Below are positions 22,001 through 62,899 of a stretch of 64,000 nt of DNA, piece after piece. How positions within the stretch are numbered: position 1 is the first letter of the stretch; each line of letters opens with the position of its first letter. The notes beneath the pieces were generated by a model. It ran no database searches, had not been told where the DNA came from, and saw only the letters and a list, made by a program, of their open reading frames with translations. A program made the position numbers and the translations under genes. Source of the stretch: Haloplasmatales bacterium 4B (GTDB taxonomy: Bacteria > Bacillota_I > Bacilli_A > Haloplasmatales > Haloplasmataceae); assembly GCA_003586005.1 (NCBI GenBank), contig NSKI01000006.1, positions 1-64,000 of the forward strand, read 5' to 3'.

Positions 22001-23278
22001 TTATTTAATGATTTCCAAACCACCCATATAAGGTCTTAACACTTTAGGTATTACGATACTGCCATCAACTTGCTGGTAATTTTCGATAATTGCAGCCCAT
22101 GTTCTACCTATAGCTAAACCTGATCCATTTAGGGTATGGACAAATTCGGGTTTCCCTTTTGGATCACGCCTAAATTTTATATTTGCTCTTCGAGCTTGAA
22201 AATCTTCAAAATTACTGCATGATGATATTTCTTTATAGCCATCATATGATGGTAGCCAAACTTCGATGTCGTACGTTTTTGCAGAACTAAAACCTAAATC
22301 GCCACTACAAAGTTCAATAACACGATATGGTAGTTCTAAAAGCTGAAGGATTTTTTCAGCATGCTTTGTTAATATTTCTAATTGTTTATACGAATCTTCA
22401 GGCTTACACAATTTAACTAACTCAACTTTATTAAATTGGTGTTGTCTAATAACTCCTCTGGTATCTCTTCCCGCGGCTCCAGCCTCTGCTCTAAAGCAAG
22501 GTGAATAAGCACAATAGGAAATTGGAAGATTATCTGCATTTAATATTTCATCACGATGATAGTTTGTTACTGGGACTTCAGCTGTTGGAACCAAAAAGTA
22601 ATTTTCATTATTATAAAGTTTAAATGCATCTTCTTCAAATTTAGGAAGTTGTCCTGTCCCTAACATACTATCTCTATTTACAATTGCAGGTGGAAGTAAT
22701 TCTTGGTATTTGTTTTGTTCAGTGTGGATATCCAACATAAATGTAATTAAAGCTCTTTCTAATTTAGCGCCTATATTTTTATAAACGGCAAATCTAGAGC
22801 CTGTAATTTTACCGGCTCTTTCAAAATCGATTAAATCAAACTTTTCAGCCAGATCCCAATGAGGTAATGGTTCAAAATTATATTCTACAGGTTTCCCAAA
22901 CTTTCTGATTTCCACATTATTATCCTCAGATGTTCCACGTGGAACATTTTCGTTCGGCAGATTAGGTGTATATAATAAAATATTTCTGATTTCATCATCA
23001 ATTTGCATAATTCTTTCATCAAAACTCTTTATTTTTTTAGAATCAAGATTCATTTCCTTCATAAGAAGAGAAATGTCTTTTTTCTCTCTTTTAAATTGAC
23101 CGATCAACTTAGAAGCATTGTTCTTTTGAGCTTTTAACTCCTCAACTTTCACAATCAGATTTCGACGTTCTTGATCAATCTCAATATATTTGTCTAAATA
23201 TTGAAAATCACCATTACGAGATTCTAATCTTCTTTTTACTTCTTCAAAATTTTCTCTTACGTATTTTGTATCTAACAT
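22001..23278 (-). CDS. serS: Seryl-tRNA synthetase
   Basis: A 425-residue class II synthetase. It has the N-terminal coiled-coil arm (about 30-100) that grips the long variable arm of tRNA-Ser. Motif 2 is visible as [21 protein letters not shown] and motif 3 as [20 protein letters not shown]. It charges tRNA-Ser (and tRNA-Sec where present). A T-box leader with its own promoter precedes it, so expression responds to uncharged tRNA-Ser. A perfect parS palindrome lies inside the coding sequence at 22931-22946, at the conserved [10 protein letters not shown] segment. The pdxS-pdxT-serS order is the Bacillus arrangement. Confidence 0.97.
22931..22946. promoter_or_regulatory. parS: parS-like site inside serS
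   Basis: TGTTCCACGTGGAACA, a perfect 16-bp palindrome one step from the Bacillus parS consensus TGTTNCACGTGAAACA. It is about 14 kb left of dnaA, which suits ParB loading at the origin. It encodes part of NVPRGT in SerRS. Confidence 0.88.
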
Positions 23279-23306: not shown

Positions 23307-23535
23307 ATAAAGAAATAAAAAAACCCATCCCTATGTTAGGGACGAGTTTACCCGCGTTGCCACCCTGGTTAGAATAACTACATATTCTCAACTTTAATAA
23401 GATAACGGTTACCCGAAAATGTTTTGCATTTTACTCAAAGGTTGATTCACGATAAAATTGTATCAGTTCACACCAGCCACTGAATCTCTAAAACAATTAT
23501 TACCATTACTATTCCTAATCATCGTTTTATATTAT
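23307..23535 (-). promoter_or_regulatory. Serine T-box riboswitch leader of serS
   Basis: The minus strand shows a T-box sequence AGGGTGGCAACGCG (23353-23366) and a terminator hairpin (CCCTA/TAGGG arms) with a T run at 23317-23323. An upstream stem I region carries the typical GGTGTGAACTGATACA segment. A TCA codon at 23443-23445, in GTGAATCAACC, is the best candidate specifier and would read tRNA-Ser; I did not fold the RNA to prove it. Uncharged tRNA-Ser should stabilise the antiterminator and allow serS transcription. Confidence 0.88.
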
Positions 23536-23540
23536 TATAT

Positions 23541-23569
23541 ATTCTATTCTTCTTTTTTATGTTTGTCAA
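23541..23569 (-). promoter_or_regulatory. Promoter of the serS T-box leader
   Basis: TTGACA and TAGAAT on the minus strand, 17 bases apart. The -35 box lies within the last codons of pdxT, so serS has its own promoter as well as possible read-through from pdxT. Confidence 0.75.
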
Positions 23570-24116
23570 TCATATTAATGAAATAATTCCCAATTTTATA
23601 ATCTTCGGTTAATTCTGGATGAAAAGATGTAGCTAATATATTATCTTGTCTTACAGCAACGATAGAATCATTATGTTTTCCAATTATTTGAACTTTGTCG
23701 CCGACTAGTTCTATATAAGGAGCCCTTATATAAACTCCCTCTACATTACCAATGCCTTCAATGTTAATAGTTTCCTCAAAACTATTAACTTGTCTTCCAA
23801 AGGCGTTCCTTTTCACTCTCACATCTAAGACACCTATATGTGTTGGATTATCAACAATCACTTTTGATAATAATATCATTCCAGCACATGTACCAAATAC
23901 AGGTTTTTTATTACAAAATTCTTTCAATTTATCCATAAACTGATACCTATCAATTAAACGTCTCATAGCAGTGCTTTCACCACCAGGTAAAACCAGACCG
24001 TCTATTTCTTCTAATTGTTTAGGCTCTTTTACCAAAACTGTTTCAATATTCAAATGCGAAAAATAGTTTTGGTGATCAAAATATGAACCTTGTAGTGCTA
24101 AAATTCCTATTCTCAT
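23544..24116 (-). CDS. pdxT: Pyridoxal 5'-phosphate synthase glutaminase subunit PdxT
   Basis: A 190-residue class I-type glutamine amidotransferase. VLPGGESTAMRRL near residues 46-58 is the family-specific loop, FGTCAGMILLS near 74-84 holds the nucleophile cysteine, and ATSFHPELTED near 167-177 holds the catalytic His-Glu pair. It hydrolyses glutamine and channels ammonia to PdxS in the 12+12 PLP synthase complex. Normally directly behind pdxS, here it lies 2 kb away beyond IS debris and has its own promoter. Stoichiometric co-expression with pdxS must therefore be achieved from two transcripts. Confidence 0.96.
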   Translation of the reverse strand: MRIGILALQGSYFDHQNYFSHLNIETVLVKEPKQLEEIDGLVLPGGESTAMRRLIDRYQFMDKLKEFCNKKPVFGTCAGMILLSKVIVDNPTHIGVLDVRVKRNAFGRQVNSFEETINIEGIGNVEGVYIRAPYIELVGDKVQIIGKHNDSIVAVRQDNILATSFHPELTEDYKIGNYFINMIDKHKKEE

Positions 24117-24153: not shown

Positions 24154-24182
24154 AATTTAACTTATTATAGAATTATTGTCAA
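24154..24182 (-). promoter_or_regulatory. Promoter of pdxT
   Basis: A perfect TTGACA at 24177-24182 (minus) with a TTAAAT/TAAATT -10 at 16-17 bases. It starts 13 bases from the parS palindrome upstream. The -10 is weaker than the -35. Confidence 0.55.
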
Positions 24183-24194
24183 CAATTTAACATC

Positions 24195-24226
24195 ATCTAT
24201 AATGTTCCACGTGGAACATTATAGAT
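24195..24226. promoter_or_regulatory. parS: parS site within a perfect 32-bp palindrome
   Basis: The core TGTTCCACGTGGAACA at 24203-24218 is identical to the site in serS. Here the symmetry continues for eight more bases on each side (ATCTATAA on the left, TTATAGAT on the right), so 32 bases are perfectly self-complementary. It lies just upstream of the pdxT promoter. Confidence 0.9.
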
Positions 24227-24745
24227 TACCAAAAAGAAAATTAATAAAATTTGTTATAAAATGTAAAACTCCTGAAAAATAGCGTAAATTAGCAGATTAA
24301 TAAACATAATGTATTATTATAAATTAGAACAATGTTAAAAAACGGCCTGCAATTTGGAAATATTGATACTTTAAAATGATGTAAACACTCTTTTGTTTTC
24401 ACTATTAAATATCTTATAACAAAAAACAAAAATTATTTTGAAATTTAATATATTCATGTTTAGTCAAGTGAATTTTACGAAAATTGTATAATTACAGGAA
24501 AAGGGATCTAAGTAGTTTATAATTCAGTTTGAACTGTTTTTCAAGAGTTTGTGGCATAGCAGTATTTAAAAGAAGGTATTAAAATCAAAATTGCATGTGT
24601 TTTTTCACCTAACGAAAATTGTACTTAACCCTGTTTTGGTTTATTAATACAGAATGTTAGTAAACTAGGAATTGAGATAGATTTACATCAGTAAAATAAA
24701 TTCATTACTGTAATAAACTAGTTAAGTGGATAGCAAAAAAATAGT
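24227..24745. other. Intergenic sequence without recognisable content
   Basis: About 0.5 kb of AT-rich sequence between the parS palindrome and the IS3 remnant. I see no gene, RNA or repeat that I can support; it may be further decayed insertion-sequence material. Confidence 0.4.
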
Positions 24746-25080
24746 CGTCTTTTTCCAATGAAAGTTAATTGCGATATTCTATCGTAGTCAAGGATATATT
24801 CTTTTGATGTCTTCTATTGTTATAGAAAACTACATGTTAGTATATGGCTTATTAAATTTCTACAATACTATTAAATTTATTGAGATAGTACAATGCTAAT
24901 TTTAGAATACCCCAAAATCCTTCCATTGGTCCATTCGATGCATCAACGACTCTAGACATCTTTTGTATTGTTTAAATGGTATAAGTTTTATTTTATAGAT
25001 TTTACTTATGTGTTGATCTCCTCAATATGTGAGAAGGTTTAGCTACTGGTTTCACTATGATAACTTTATCAAAGATCTTA
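24746..25080 (-). mobile_element. Decayed IS3-family transposase fragment
   Basis: The segment aligns by eye with the C-terminal orfB region of the IS at 32937-34582. Shared blocks are CGATATTCTATCG-AGTCAAG, CCCCAAAA-CCTTCCAT-GGTCC and AACTCTAGACAT. Gaps and stops break every frame. It is therefore an older, more degraded relative of the same IS group (IS150-like), not a recent copy. Confidence 0.75.
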
Positions 25081-25109
25081 AATGTCAATTGTTAGAATAA
25101 CCAATATCG

Positions 25110-25915
25110 AATGGTGTAAAATCCTTATGGGCAGTTTATGTATGATGGGGGGTGAATTATCACGCCAAATTCTAGCAAACAGGATAATTAAAGGAGTTGA
25201 GTGATTAGAAACAATATAATCGCATGTATGATTTATTGTTTCAAAACGATATACTACACGCAGATGAGACACTCTAGGTATAAAAAGAACCTGGTAAGGG
25301 CCTTTCTACTAAATCATATATTTGGCTTTATCGAACAGGTTGAATTGGGCCAGATATTGTCATGTATGATTATCAATTATCAAGAGAAGGCAAGCTTCCT
25401 GAAGATTTCTCGAAAAGTTTTTCAGGATGCTTATGAGTAGATAGTTATAATGGATATAATAATATTCCTGATGTGACACTAGTATCTCGCTGGGCTCATT
25501 CGAGAGAGTATTTTTATGAGGGCATTATGTCTAAACCCAAAAAGAGGACGGAAGGTGCACAGGCATTGACTAATGAAGAACAAGGATTTTTATTCTGCTC
25601 ACAACTTTATGAAGCCAAAAAAAAATTAAGAATTTATCGTCTGATGAAAAATATGCCACAAAAAATCACAGCCGACAAATACTGTATATTTTTTCAATTG
25701 TACATAAAAGAAAAACGAGTCAAGCTATTACTCATTGTTTAAATCAATTAAGTGGATAATAACCACGCAGAAAGATCAATTAAACCATTCGTAATTGGTA
25801 AGCCATTTCAATATATAACATATTTATTAAATCATTTCCCAAATATCAATCTTAAAAATTAAGAACAACTAGACTTCCTTTTTCCCTTGGTCAAAATCAA
25901 TCTCAAATGAATGTA
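25110..25915 (+). pseudogene. Remnant of an IS66-family transposase (TnpC)
   Basis: Fragments in several plus-strand frames follow the order of IS66 transposase. They are ELSRQILANRIIKGVE, an HADET-like stretch, LYRTG, a GYNNIPDVTLVSRWAHSRE block, AEAKKKL-like sequence (LYEAKKKLRIYRL), VDNNHAERSIKPFVIGK, and the tail FPNINLKN/EQLDFLFPWSKS. Stops and frameshifts occur throughout, so it is dead. It sits next to the IS3 fragment and together they separate pdxS from pdxT. Confidence 0.85.
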
Positions 25916-26063
25916 AATTAATAAAATACCTGCCTTTTAGGTGAGGCTTGTTCTTTATGTCAATGTGTGTTAGAAATGAAGCTTACTTTTGTTTTTCAAC
26001 TTTATAGTTTTCAACGTAATTTTCTTACTAAATTTTGTATTTCTTACCATCAAACTCAAAAAC

Positions 26064-26099
26064 AGGGCCGTTATAACCTCTCACAGTTATAACGGCCCT
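26064..26099 (-). terminator. Strong terminator after pdxS
   Basis: Arms AGGGCCGTTATAAC and GTTATAACGGCCCT, 14 perfect base pairs with an eight-base loop, then TGTTTTTG-like sequence on the minus strand. It closes the gyrB-gyrA-pdxS transcript and isolates pdxT. Confidence 0.88.
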
Positions 26100-26114
26100 A
26101 ATCTTTATATGTAA

Positions 26115-41156: not shown

Positions 41157-41406
41157 TATATTATTAAATACATTGAAGAGGACAGTAACTTTTAATGGTC
41201 GATACAGCAAAATTGGGATGATGAGAGCCAATTACAGATTTATTAGTGAAGAACACCTCGGAGTTTCTGATTGAAATTATTTGAGAGTAGATTAAGACGG
41301 ATTTCCTACCGTTAAAAAGGAATGCCAGAAGAGGTCTTTTTGACAATCAGGGTGGTACCGCGGATAACAGCCATTCGTCCCTTACGCGTTTTGGCTGTTT
41401 TTTTAT
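41157..41406 (+). promoter_or_regulatory. Asparagine T-box riboswitch leader
   Basis: The canonical T-box AGGGTGGTACCGCG lies at 41349-41362, followed by a terminator (AACAGCCA and TGGCTGTT arms, then a run of T) to 41406. Stem I contains AGTGAAGAACACC, where AAC at 41252-41254 is the specifier codon for asparagine. This fits asnS, the second gene behind it. Read-through, and so expression of both rmuC and asnS, should rise when tRNA-Asn is uncharged. Confidence 0.92.
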
Positions 41407-48180: not shown

Positions 48181-48981
48181 ATGAATATTTTTTCAGGTAA
48201 TAAGGATAAAATTATTTATATTAAACTTTCACAAATTATTGTTAATGAAAACCAACCCAGATCAATTTTTGATGATGATAAAATAACTGAATTAGCAGAT
48301 TCAATTAAAGAGCATGGCGTATTACAACCAATTATTGTAAGGCAAAAAAGTAACCAGTATGAAATTGTAGCTGGAGAAAGGCGATTTAGAGCATGCAGTA
48401 TATTGAATTTGGACGTAATTCCAGCTATTATTAAAGATTTTAATGAAGAAGAAGCGGCCTCAGTATCGTTAATTGAAAATATTCAAAGGGAAGACTTAAC
48501 AGCCATTGAGGAGGCTAAGGCTTATAAATTGCTCATGGAAATTAATAATTTAAGACAAGAAGATTTAGCTAATAAATTAGGCAAAGCTCAATCAACAGTG
48601 GCAAATAAAATAAGATTATTAAACTTACCAAATGAAGTACAGGATGCAATATTAAAAAAACTGATTACAGAAAGACATGCTAGGTCACTATTAACTGTTA
48701 AAGAGAAAGAAAAACAGTTATATGTTTTAAATAAAATTATTGAAAAAGAATTAACAGTAAAAGAAACTGAAAAATTTATTCAAAACTTACTTAATAAAGA
48801 AGTAGCCAAGCCTAAAGGAAAAATTATTAGTAAAATTTCTAAAGATGCGAGAATTGCTATTAATACTATTAACCATGCTTTGTTTATGGTTAAAGAACAA
48901 TCAGGAATAGATTTACAAACAAATCAAGATGAGGATGAAGAATATTATATTTACCAGATAAAAATTCCCAAAACTAAATAA
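48181..48981 (+). CDS. noc: Nucleoid occlusion protein Noc (ParB family)
   Basis: A 266-residue ParB-like CTPase. It has the box NENQPRSIFDDDKITELADSI, the CTP-binding GERRFRA motif near residue 63, NIQREDLTAIEEA, and the helix-turn-helix LRQEDLANKLGKAQSTVANK. Its gene position ahead of parA-parB identifies it as Noc rather than ParB. Noc keeps the division septum off the chromosome by binding its own 14-bp sites and the membrane. I saw no copy of ATTTCCCGGGAAAT in this window, as expected near the origin region where ParB works. Confidence 0.9.
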   Translation: MNIFSGNKDKIIYIKLSQIIVNENQPRSIFDDDKITELADSIKEHGVLQPIIVRQKSNQYEIVAGERRFRACSILNLDVIPAIIKDFNEEEAASVSLIENIQREDLTAIEEAKAYKLLMEINNLRQEDLANKLGKAQSTVANKIRLLNLPNEVQDAILKKLITERHARSLLTVKEKEKQLYVLNKIIEKELTVKETEKFIQNLLNKEVAKPKGKIISKISKDARIAINTINHALFMVKEQSGIDLQTNQDEDEEYYIYQIKIPKTK

Positions 48982-48982
48982 T

Positions 48983-49031
48983 TTATCCACATTTTATAAA
49001 AGTTTTCCACAAAAAGTGGATAACTTTTATT
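48983..49031 (+). terminator. Noc terminator and DnaA-box cluster
   Basis: Three DnaA-type boxes: TTATCCACA (48983-48991, perfect), TTTTCCACA (49003-49011) and AGTGGATAA (49015-49023). The last two form the arms of a hairpin (AAAAGTTTTCCAC and GTGGATAACTTTT, one mismatch) followed by TATTTTTTT. The element therefore doubles as a terminator for noc and a DnaA-binding region upstream of parA. Confidence 0.7.
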
Positions 49032-49099
49032 TTTTTGCTATCTTTTTTTAATTTATTATGTTAAAATATGTATATAAATTTGATAAAAGGAGCAATAAA

Positions 49100-49864
49100 A
49101 TGGGAAAGATAATTGCGATTGCTAATCAAAAAGGTGGAGTTGGGAAAACAACTACAAGTATTAACTTGGCTGCCTGTTTAAATAAACAAGGGAAAAAGGT
49201 ATTAATCATTGATATTGATCCACAAGGGAATGCAACTACTGGGATAGGGATAAATCGTGGGGAGCTTAAGAAAAGTGTCTATGATATAATTATTGATCAG
49301 GTAGACTCTGATGATGTTGTAATAAAATCTAGAACAAGTAACCTAGATATTATTCCTTCAACAATGGACTTAGCTGGTGCTGAGGTTCAACTAGTTGGTA
49401 TTCAACATAGAGAATACCGTCTAGCAAACACAATAAGAAAATACAAAGAAAATTATGATTATATTATAATAGATTGCCCTCCTTCATTAGGATTACTTAC
49501 AATAAATGCTTTAACAGCTGCAGATTCAGTTGTAATTACTGTTCAATGTGAGTATTATGCACTTGAAGGGTTAACTCAACTATTAAATACAATTAGAATA
49601 ACTCAAAAATATTTAAACAGTAATTTAGCTTTAGAAGGAGTATTACTAACAATGTTTGATGCTCGAACTAATTTGGGTATTGAAGTAACAAAGGAAGTAA
49701 AGACGTTCTTCAGAGAAAAAGTATATTCAACAATAATTCCTAGAAATGTTCATTTAGCAGAATCACCATCACATGGTTTACCAATTATTGATTATGCTCC
49801 AAATTCTAAAGGTGCAAAGGTATATTTGGATTTGGCGAAGGAAGTGATTGAAAACAATGAGTAG
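49100..49864 (+). CDS. parA: Chromosome-partitioning ATPase ParA/Soj
   Basis: A 254-residue deviant Walker ATPase: ANQKGGVGKTTTSINLAA at the start, IDIDPQGNATTG and IIDCPPSLGLLT further on. Soj regulates DnaA and helps origin segregation, with ParB stimulating ATP hydrolysis. The ATG at 49100 has AAAGGAG before it; the 14-codon extension upstream is rejected. It overlaps parB by eight bases. A DnaA-box hairpin lies just upstream, giving a possible direct DnaA-to-parA link. Confidence 0.97.
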   Translation: MGKIIAIANQKGGVGKTTTSINLAACLNKQGKKVLIIDIDPQGNATTGIGINRGELKKSVYDIIIDQVDSDDVVIKSRTSNLDIIPSTMDLAGAEVQLVGIQHREYRLANTIRKYKENYDYIIIDCPPSLGLLTINALTAADSVVITVQCEYYALEGLTQLLNTIRITQKYLNSNLALEGVLLTMFDARTNLGIEVTKEVKTFFREKVYSTIIPRNVHLAESPSHGLPIIDYAPNSKGAKVYLDLAKEVIENNE

Positions 49865-50747
49865 TCGTTTAGGTAGAGGAATTGGAGCCTTGTTTCAAGA
49901 AAACACAACTTTTTCTGAAGACATCCAAGAAAATGAAAAAATTGAAGAAATCGAATTAACTAAATTAAAAAGAAACCCATTTCAGCCAAGAAAAATTTTT
50001 GATGAAGAAAAAATTTCTGAATTAGCTCAATCAATTAGAGAACATGGGGTATTTCAACCGATAATAGTTACAAAAATTAAAGAGGGTATGGGCTTTTATA
50101 TTGTTGCTGGAGAAAGGCGGTTCAAAGCTTGTGAAAAACTAAGTTTATTAACTATTCCTGCGATAATACGTGATATTGATAATCAAACCATGGCAGAAAT
50201 AGCCTTACTAGAGAATTTGCAAAGAGAAAATTTGACTAGCATTGAAGAAGCTTTTGCATATAAAATGCTGATAGATGAATATTCGTTTACACAACAAGAA
50301 GTTGCTGATCGTGTAGGTAAAAGTAGAGCCCATATTACAAATTCATTAAGATTATTATCTTTACCAACAGAGGTTCAAGATATGATTAACAATGGAACTA
50401 TTGATTTTGGACATGCAAAGGTATTGGCAGGTTTATCTGATGAAAATTTACTTGTTTATTTAGCTAATAAAATTATTGATGAAAATTTATCAGTCCGAGC
50501 TTTAGAACAATTAATTAAAGAGGAAATGGGAAAAGAAAAAAAGCCAATACAAGAGAAAAAACAAATTCAAAGAAATGTAAACCTAATGTATCTTGAAGAA
50601 AAATTAATTAGTACATTAGGAACATCAACTAAAATTATTGAGAAAGGTTCAGGAGGTAAATTAGTAATTGATTTTAACAGCACAGAAGATTTAAATCGAT
50701 TACTTAAGATAATGAGCCTAGAAGATATTATAAATATTGTAGATTAA
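49857..50747 (+). CDS. parB: Chromosome-partitioning protein ParB/Spo0J
   Basis: A 296-residue CTPase clamp. It starts MSSRLGRGIGALF, the ParA-activating N terminus, followed by KRNPFQPRKIFDEEKISELA, the CTP motif GERRFKA, ALLENLQRENL, the parS-binding helix-turn-helix FTQQEVADRVGKSRAHITNS, and a C-terminal dimer domain. It loads SMC at parS sites. Two perfect parS sites are present in this window, in serS and before pdxT. Confidence 0.97.
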   Translation: MSSRLGRGIGALFQENTTFSEDIQENEKIEEIELTKLKRNPFQPRKIFDEEKISELAQSIREHGVFQPIIVTKIKEGMGFYIVAGERRFKACEKLSLLTIPAIIRDIDNQTMAEIALLENLQRENLTSIEEAFAYKMLIDEYSFTQQEVADRVGKSRAHITNSLRLLSLPTEVQDMINNGTIDFGHAKVLAGLSDENLLVYLANKIIDENLSVRALEQLIKEEMGKEKKPIQEKKQIQRNVNLMYLEEKLISTLGTSTKIIEKGSGGKLVIDFNSTEDLNRLLKIMSLEDIINIVD

Positions 50748-62867: not shown

Positions 62868-62899
62868 AAAAAGTTATCCACAGTTGTGGATAACTTTTT
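62868..62899. terminator. Bidirectional terminator formed by inverted DnaA boxes
   Basis: A perfect palindrome with AAAAAGTTATCCACA facing TGTGGATAACTTTTT around GT. Both arms contain the consensus DnaA box TTATCCACA (62874-62882 and 62885-62893). It lies between the purA stop and the convergent stop of the ECF gene, so it serves as a terminator for both. It could also bind DnaA about 25 kb from the origin. Confidence 0.85.

Follow-up and report, generated by a model that had tools for sequence, protein, structure and literature searches.

The stretch of DNA analysed here (the window, 64 kb) carries dnaA, dnaN and gyrB together with a palindrome at 24195-24226, ATCTATAATGTTCCACGTGGAACATTATAGAT, which lies upstream of pdxT and is, as read directly from the sequence, self-complementary throughout its 32 bp. 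By these marker genes the palindrome lies near oriC. The features on which the argument draws are the following:

22931-22946, no strand: second parS-like 16-mer, identical to that of the palindrome, within serS and without extended symmetry
23544-24116, minus strand: pdxT (SNO glutaminase family), by homology
24154-24182, minus strand: putative pdxT promoter, TTGACA-17 nt-TAAATT; 7 of 8 genomes have a TTGAC[AT] box on the downstream side of the palindrome
24195-24202, no strand: left extra arm of the palindrome, ATCTATAA, from the sequence, the inverted-repeat scan and the arm comparison
24203-24218, no strand: parS-like 16-mer, TGTTCCACGTGGAACA, presumed ParB binding/loading site, with a cognate ParB in the window
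24219-24226, no strand: right extra arm, TTATAGAT, on the same evidence as the left
24300-26050, no strand: decayed insertion-sequence DNA, which separates pdxS from the palindrome, with IS66-like pieces at 25437-25862 on the plus strand
26063-26100, minus strand: intrinsic-terminator-like hairpin directly 3' of pdxS, from the terminator scan, 1.8 kb from the palindrome
48181-50747, plus strand: noc-like, soj/parA-like and parB genes, by homology and residue reading

A first-pass annotation of this DNA had placed a parS core within a perfect 32-bp palindrome, reported the same 16-mer in serS, and held that the symmetry exceeds what parS needs. The sequence bears out all of this: the dyad runs 8 bp past the 16-mer on each side, whereas perfect symmetry around the serS copy, which sits 1.3 kb away, ends at 18 bp overall. 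The two are the only exact TGTTYCACGTGRAACA sites in the whole 2.26-Mb assembly, and parS-like matches in the window number 2 against 0.00 expected (100 shuffles). The 16-mer differs at one base from the parS consensus TGTTNCACGTGAAACA, as given in the available part of PMC7022226, and at two from TGTTTCACGTGAAACA. By length, 24195-24226 tops all perfect inverted repeats (loop 0-8) in the 64 kb, where the number of perfect 32-bp palindromes predicted from composition is about 0.0002. Symmetry by accident in AT-rich DNA would be in keeping with the AT-richness of the arms and with two relatives that do without them (G001 and G002), but with the 16-mer given, the chance of eight more pairs at this site alone is about 0.0002 at local composition, and the comparisons with swapped arms described below, both within the family and outside it, also count against such an accident, which is barely credible.

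The window's second-longest inverted repeat, AAAAAGTTATCCACAGTTGTGGATAACTTTTT at 62868-62899, is a palindrome of terminator shape lying between two convergent genes, one purA-like and one ECF-transporter-like. It is a head-to-head pair of TTATCCACA 9-mers, which we take to be DnaA-box-like, and would be another origin-protein site built as a hairpin, beside the parS case.

The site resembles chromosomal parS of the ParABS (Spo0J/Soj) system in its core, one base off TGTTNCACGTGAAACA, in the proximity of dnaA and gyrB, and in the presence of a parS-type ParB in the window; it differs in that the dyad extends 8 bp on each side and that relatives keep the pairing, not the sequence. Under the code for parS-type and Noc-type residues in the available part of PMC7383237, the window ParB (P0003), with GKSR and GHA, is parS-type and its paralogue (P0002), with GKAQ and RHA, is Noc-type, the residues having been placed by eye; in the same by-eye placement, ParB carries the parS-type recognition residues R173 and G201. 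Since a parS-type ParB and origin genes share the window, the 16-mer core is, as judged from sequence, very probably a working parS. The Noc-type paralogue is encoded at 48181-48978, yet none of the 8 family genomes has a match to the exact Noc-binding site (NBS), ATTTCCCGGGAAAT, a pattern whose D/H end caps could let some sites escape; the sequence recognised by the paralogue may have drifted.

The family comparison covers eight genomes, the window and seven relatives (G001-G007). All seven relatives encode pdxT, at 69-76% identity, and a parS-like core lies upstream of pdxT in all eight genomes, exact in G002, G003, G004 and G007 and with one or two mismatches in G001, G005 and G006. Beyond the 16-mer, the perfect run extends for 8 bp in the window and for 1, 1, 12, 7, 11, 10 and 6 bp in G001 to G007, in that order. 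Extended symmetry, 6-12 bp past the 16-mer, is thus present in six of the eight, G001 and G002 lacking extended arms, and the arm sequences differ (ATCTATAA in the window, AAACAAAAAA in G003, TCTACAAAA in G005 and G006). The mean pairing run is 7.0 bp for own arms against 2.9 bp for arms swapped among the eight genomes, and a run as high as that of own arms is reached in 4 of 40,320 permutations (2 of 5,040 without G006, and 2 of 720 without G006 and G003). Counting matches over 12 positions gives a weaker signal than the unbroken run (92 of 40,320, 37 of 5,040 and 30 of 720 permutations). When the family is aligned without gaps, pairing cells make up 86.6%, as opposed to 76.8% in shuffles, and the covariation score is 0.273 against 0.107, neither value being reached by any of 500 shuffles. 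The pairs changed on both sides number 5 against 3.8 in shuffles (107/500), which is not exceptional, and 8 when the partner is slid by +3; sliding the partner along the alignment lowers pairing to 43-54%.

As own arms pair in excess of swapped ones and the arms differ between genomes, the family keeps the symmetry of the arms rather than their bases. The first-pass annotation had made its proposal depend on conservation of the flanks in close relatives; the symmetry has been kept, in six of eight genomes, and the bases have not. This retention of pairing despite changing arm letters suggests that, in many cases, the site also serves as a hairpin. In G005 and G006 the cores carry two mismatches and one mismatch from consensus (three places in total), the arms are still complementary, and they have been maintained although the surrounding flanks, compared by eye, have diverged. 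The serS beside pdxT in G007 (L072) is a stop-riddled remnant that retains a parS-like core, and this genome has another SerS elsewhere, 34% identical to that of the window.

If transcribed, the palindrome is predicted to form a stable RNA hairpin of -17.6 kcal/mol with a 14-bp stem (z -7.7). The RNA hairpin that had been raised earlier is borne out as a possibility. Intrinsic terminators offer a close likeness in G003 and G004, where the hairpin follows the pdxS stop codon with A-tract and T-tract flanks, the 16-mer lying about 31 nt past the stop in G003 (by reading) and beginning 40 nt past it in G004. Elsewhere in the class, too, parS can be terminator-like (L021, L161, L183, L184). The window palindrome differs from terminators in having no U-tract: the terminator scan found nothing terminator-like at 24195-24226, and the first 10 bases past the 16-mer on the pdxT strand hold 4 T, against 5-9 in the seven relatives. 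Here pdxS lies 2 kb from the palindrome, and the IS66-like pieces in the interval match PF03050 (E 0.00045 and 0.0022) without reaching its curated cut-off. The pdxS/pdxT junction holds extra DNA in G005 and G006 as well as in the window.

On its other side, the palindrome is separated from the -35-like TTGACA (24182) by 12 bases. ParB slides over kilobases, so a distance of 12 bases from a -35 is nothing special. From the 16-mer to the TTGAC[AT] box the distance is 20 nt in the window and 12, 37, 81, 36, 35 and 12 nt in G002 to G007, while G001 has no such box within 140 nt of the 16-mer. A pdxT-specific promoter geometry was sought in the family and rejected, because a spacing of 12-81 nt across seven of eight genomes is not operator geometry. 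Promoter-like matches in the surrounding 4-kb stretch number 16 against 21.2 expected and do not rise above shuffles. Also rejected was a divergent plus-strand promoter-like match, TTGTCA-16-TATAAT (24176-24203, 11/12), which overlaps the left arm; TATAAT occurs in the arms of none of the seven relatives.

The arms might form an operator for some other dimeric regulator of pdxT, or a ParB-responsive pdxT switch. Such a role would be consistent with the position upstream of pdxT in all eight family genomes and with the conservation of the arms between G005 and G006, both of genus g5, and there is a precedent in the available part of PMC7022226, in which P. aeruginosa ParB represses two genes with an intergenic parS upstream. 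But arm sequence differs between genera, the spacing to the -35-like box ranges over 12-81 nt, and the same extension is found at parS beside other genes, which makes an operator or switch very unlikely. The earlier proposal that spreading ParB could affect pdxT expression is likewise unsupported as an effect specific to pdxT, as the -35 spacing varies and a second parS lies 1.3 kb off in serS. Further precedents in the available part of PMC7022226 are mixed: in B. subtilis, genes adjacent to parS are unchanged without Spo0J; in S. pneumoniae, none of eight changed genes lies near a parS, and comCDE, 5 kb from a parS, is affected. Given these precedents an effect on pdxT is possible; nothing in this analysis points that way.

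The arrangement of parS and pdxT looks family-specific within a sample of 80 PdxT loci from named genomes (among the matches listed, at most 56% identity), since no 16-mer with two mismatches or fewer lies within 1.9 kb upstream in these loci, of which the nearest records may be absent and some are short on the upstream side. Among the same 80 listed matches there is one exact TGTTYCACGTGRAACA (L097), about 3.3 kb upstream of pdxT.

Extended symmetry at parS is not confined to pdxT. A class set was drawn from 70 of 147 matching genomes outside the family (among the matches listed), with duplicates removed and sites closer than 40 bases to the end of a locus left out; a 90-aa ORF rule divides it into 97 intergenic and 43 coding sites and mislabels some, such as the "coding" L158 and L020, which have long runs and look intergenic, L158 lying within a T-box. 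Among the matches listed, at least five extra pairs are found at 21/97 intergenic parS (swapped control 1.5%) versus 2/43 coding ones. For the same listed matches, the pairing of own arms is 3.06 against 1.09 for swapped arms at intergenic sites (0/2000 shuffles), and 1.02 against 0.80 at coding sites (231/2000).

Because the exact NBS is absent from all eight family genomes, Noc-type sites from other families served as a control. The comparison drew on 75 listed sites of each kind, coding and intergenic pooled. Rows belonging to the window, or identical or nearly identical to another row, were removed by hand: for parS these were G000, both G069 sites, and one each of G339 and G407, and for NBS one each of G165, G213, G261 and G342 and two each of G151 and G049. 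In this second parS set, which has 12-base flanks and partly overlaps the first, 31/69 sites have at least five extra pairs (swapped 2.8%), against 16/67 Noc-type sites (swapped 10.6%, a value raised by the AATT extension that is fixed in one family), a control that is imperfect in that its sites are 14-mers and pool coding with intergenic positions. At least seven extra pairs are found in 24/69 parS and 2/67 Noc-type sites. NBS resemble the palindrome as palindromic sites of a ParB paralogue, with extra symmetric bases in family f10, and differ in that these bases are mostly the fixed AATT and long variable arms are rare. Noc-type sites nevertheless exceed their shuffles slightly (own 2.57 versus swapped 1.73, 0/5000; f10 alone 9/5000), indicating a weak general tendency to symmetry.

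A mutational origin is conceivable, in which, during replication, template switching within a palindrome already present makes one arm a copy of the other and so yields perfect arms without selection. The accessible portion of PMC8604942 describes homogenisation of arms by template switching between inverted repeats in yeast, and the slight excess at Noc-type sites agrees with such a process. It is disfavoured by the Noc control, in which long arms are far rarer in 14-bp palindromes, and by the core mismatches of G005 and G006, which have been left uncorrected between complementary arms; nor does it predict the enrichment past stop codons described below. We regard this origin as unlikely.

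Rfam was run on 20 loci, 16 of which had been selected because a T-box-like motif lies next to parS, and 14 hold a T-box leader at the gathering score, with parS inside the leader in 14/14 (L019, L020, L021, L040, L153, L158, L162, L163, L181, L199, L200, L201, L208 and L210, all from other families of the class). The three alignments shown have parS as the hairpin immediately 5' of the AGGGUGG motif, which we take to be T-box Stem III (RF00230), and a serS homologue lies downstream of 12/12 motif-flagged sites, at 32-65% identity. In other families a parS takes up that hairpin of the serS leader; the palindrome, by contrast, lies outside any T-box, and the T-box of the window's own serS (23335-23531) has no parS. 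The window's other T-box, at 41164-41385, precedes an RmuC-family gene, which is not a usual neighbour for a T-box.

Just past an ORF, L021 and L183 also carry terminator-like extended sites, as does L161, where the site lies between convergent ORFs. The position relative to stop codons was counted in 116 intergenic sites, including the window palindrome, under a 100-aa ORF rule with loci of the second parS listing added (TAA and TAG only for L167-L170 and for loci from L234 on). With the window row left out, mechanical ORFs, and related genomes counted as independent, 18/21 sites with at least seven extra pairs lie within 80 nt past a stop codon, versus 32/64 sites with 0-2 (Fisher p 0.005); with a limit of 40 nt the counts are 14/21 versus 29/64, which is not significant (p 0.13).

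Other sites raise the possibility that the symmetry acts in the DNA itself, through hairpin or cruciform extrusion or as an aid to ParB/SMC loading, with pairing kept while bases drift. In genus g56, symmetric arms have a 5'-T/3'-A polarity, wrong for a terminator, and differ between congeners, although the six aligned sites were hand-picked for perfect symmetry from 40 f4 sites (11 without an extra pair), so that their perfect pairing and absence of one-sided changes arise by construction and they illustrate covariation only. Extended symmetry also occurs in sites classed as having neither a T-box nor a terminator-type T-tract (12/53 with at least five extra pairs, under a rule that passed some T-box sites, such as L153), and stable single-strand DNA hairpins are predicted for the five of eight family palindromes that were folded. 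A role in DNA is harder to reconcile with the lack of arms at serS copies and at many intergenic parS (35/97 with 0-1 extra pairs, among the matches listed), or with their persistence where the ParB core has decayed, in G005 and G006, and no title among the papers listed for parS and ParB with cruciforms describes it; this role is rather unlikely. In family f4 (L168, L234-L243), parS sites, often two together, lie between serS and the SRP RNA gene, and the arms covary among congeners, with CTGC/GCAG in G396 and G426 and CCGC/GCGG in G209.

The explanation we prefer, tentatively, is that the palindrome is an ordinary origin-region parS with a second role, ancestral if not current, as an RNA hairpin at the junction of pdxS and pdxT. 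ParB would be expected to load at the core, given its sequence and the ParB encoded in the window, and the arms would stay self-complementary while their bases drift. The extra symmetry would most likely come from a second job, that of an RNA hairpin between pdxS and the pdxT promoter, and as a 3'-end or terminator hairpin it would separate upstream transcription from pdxT. The model for such a role is provided by intergenic parS elsewhere in the class, which look terminator-like or would hold what is presumably Stem III of the serS T-box. In this genome, with no U-tract at the palindrome and a separate terminator-like hairpin for pdxS at a distance of 1.8 kb, the palindrome would be a weak insulator or else a relic that has been retained. 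That intergenic parS of the class are commonly double-coded, as a DNA centromere and a working RNA hairpin (serS T-box Stem III, terminators and 3'-end hairpins), is a broader idea that we consider possible though doubtful.

In the usual view, parS is a self-contained 16-bp DNA signal. Among the titles listed on parS with terminator, palindrome, hairpin, riboswitch, T-box/serS or cruciform, none describes the arrangement reported here, subscription journals being largely outside the coverage. Should its flanks frequently evolve together as a hairpin, part of the element would escape motif searches and be missing from engineered parS copies. The placement of parS at terminators, T-box leaders and gene ends would then be explained by spots that already needed palindromes, which is testable, and the question is raised of whether a loaded ParB clamp influences termination, or tRNA sensing at serS. 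If double-coding is true, ParB clamps would load on elements that decide transcription, coupling segregation with gene expression in the origin region.
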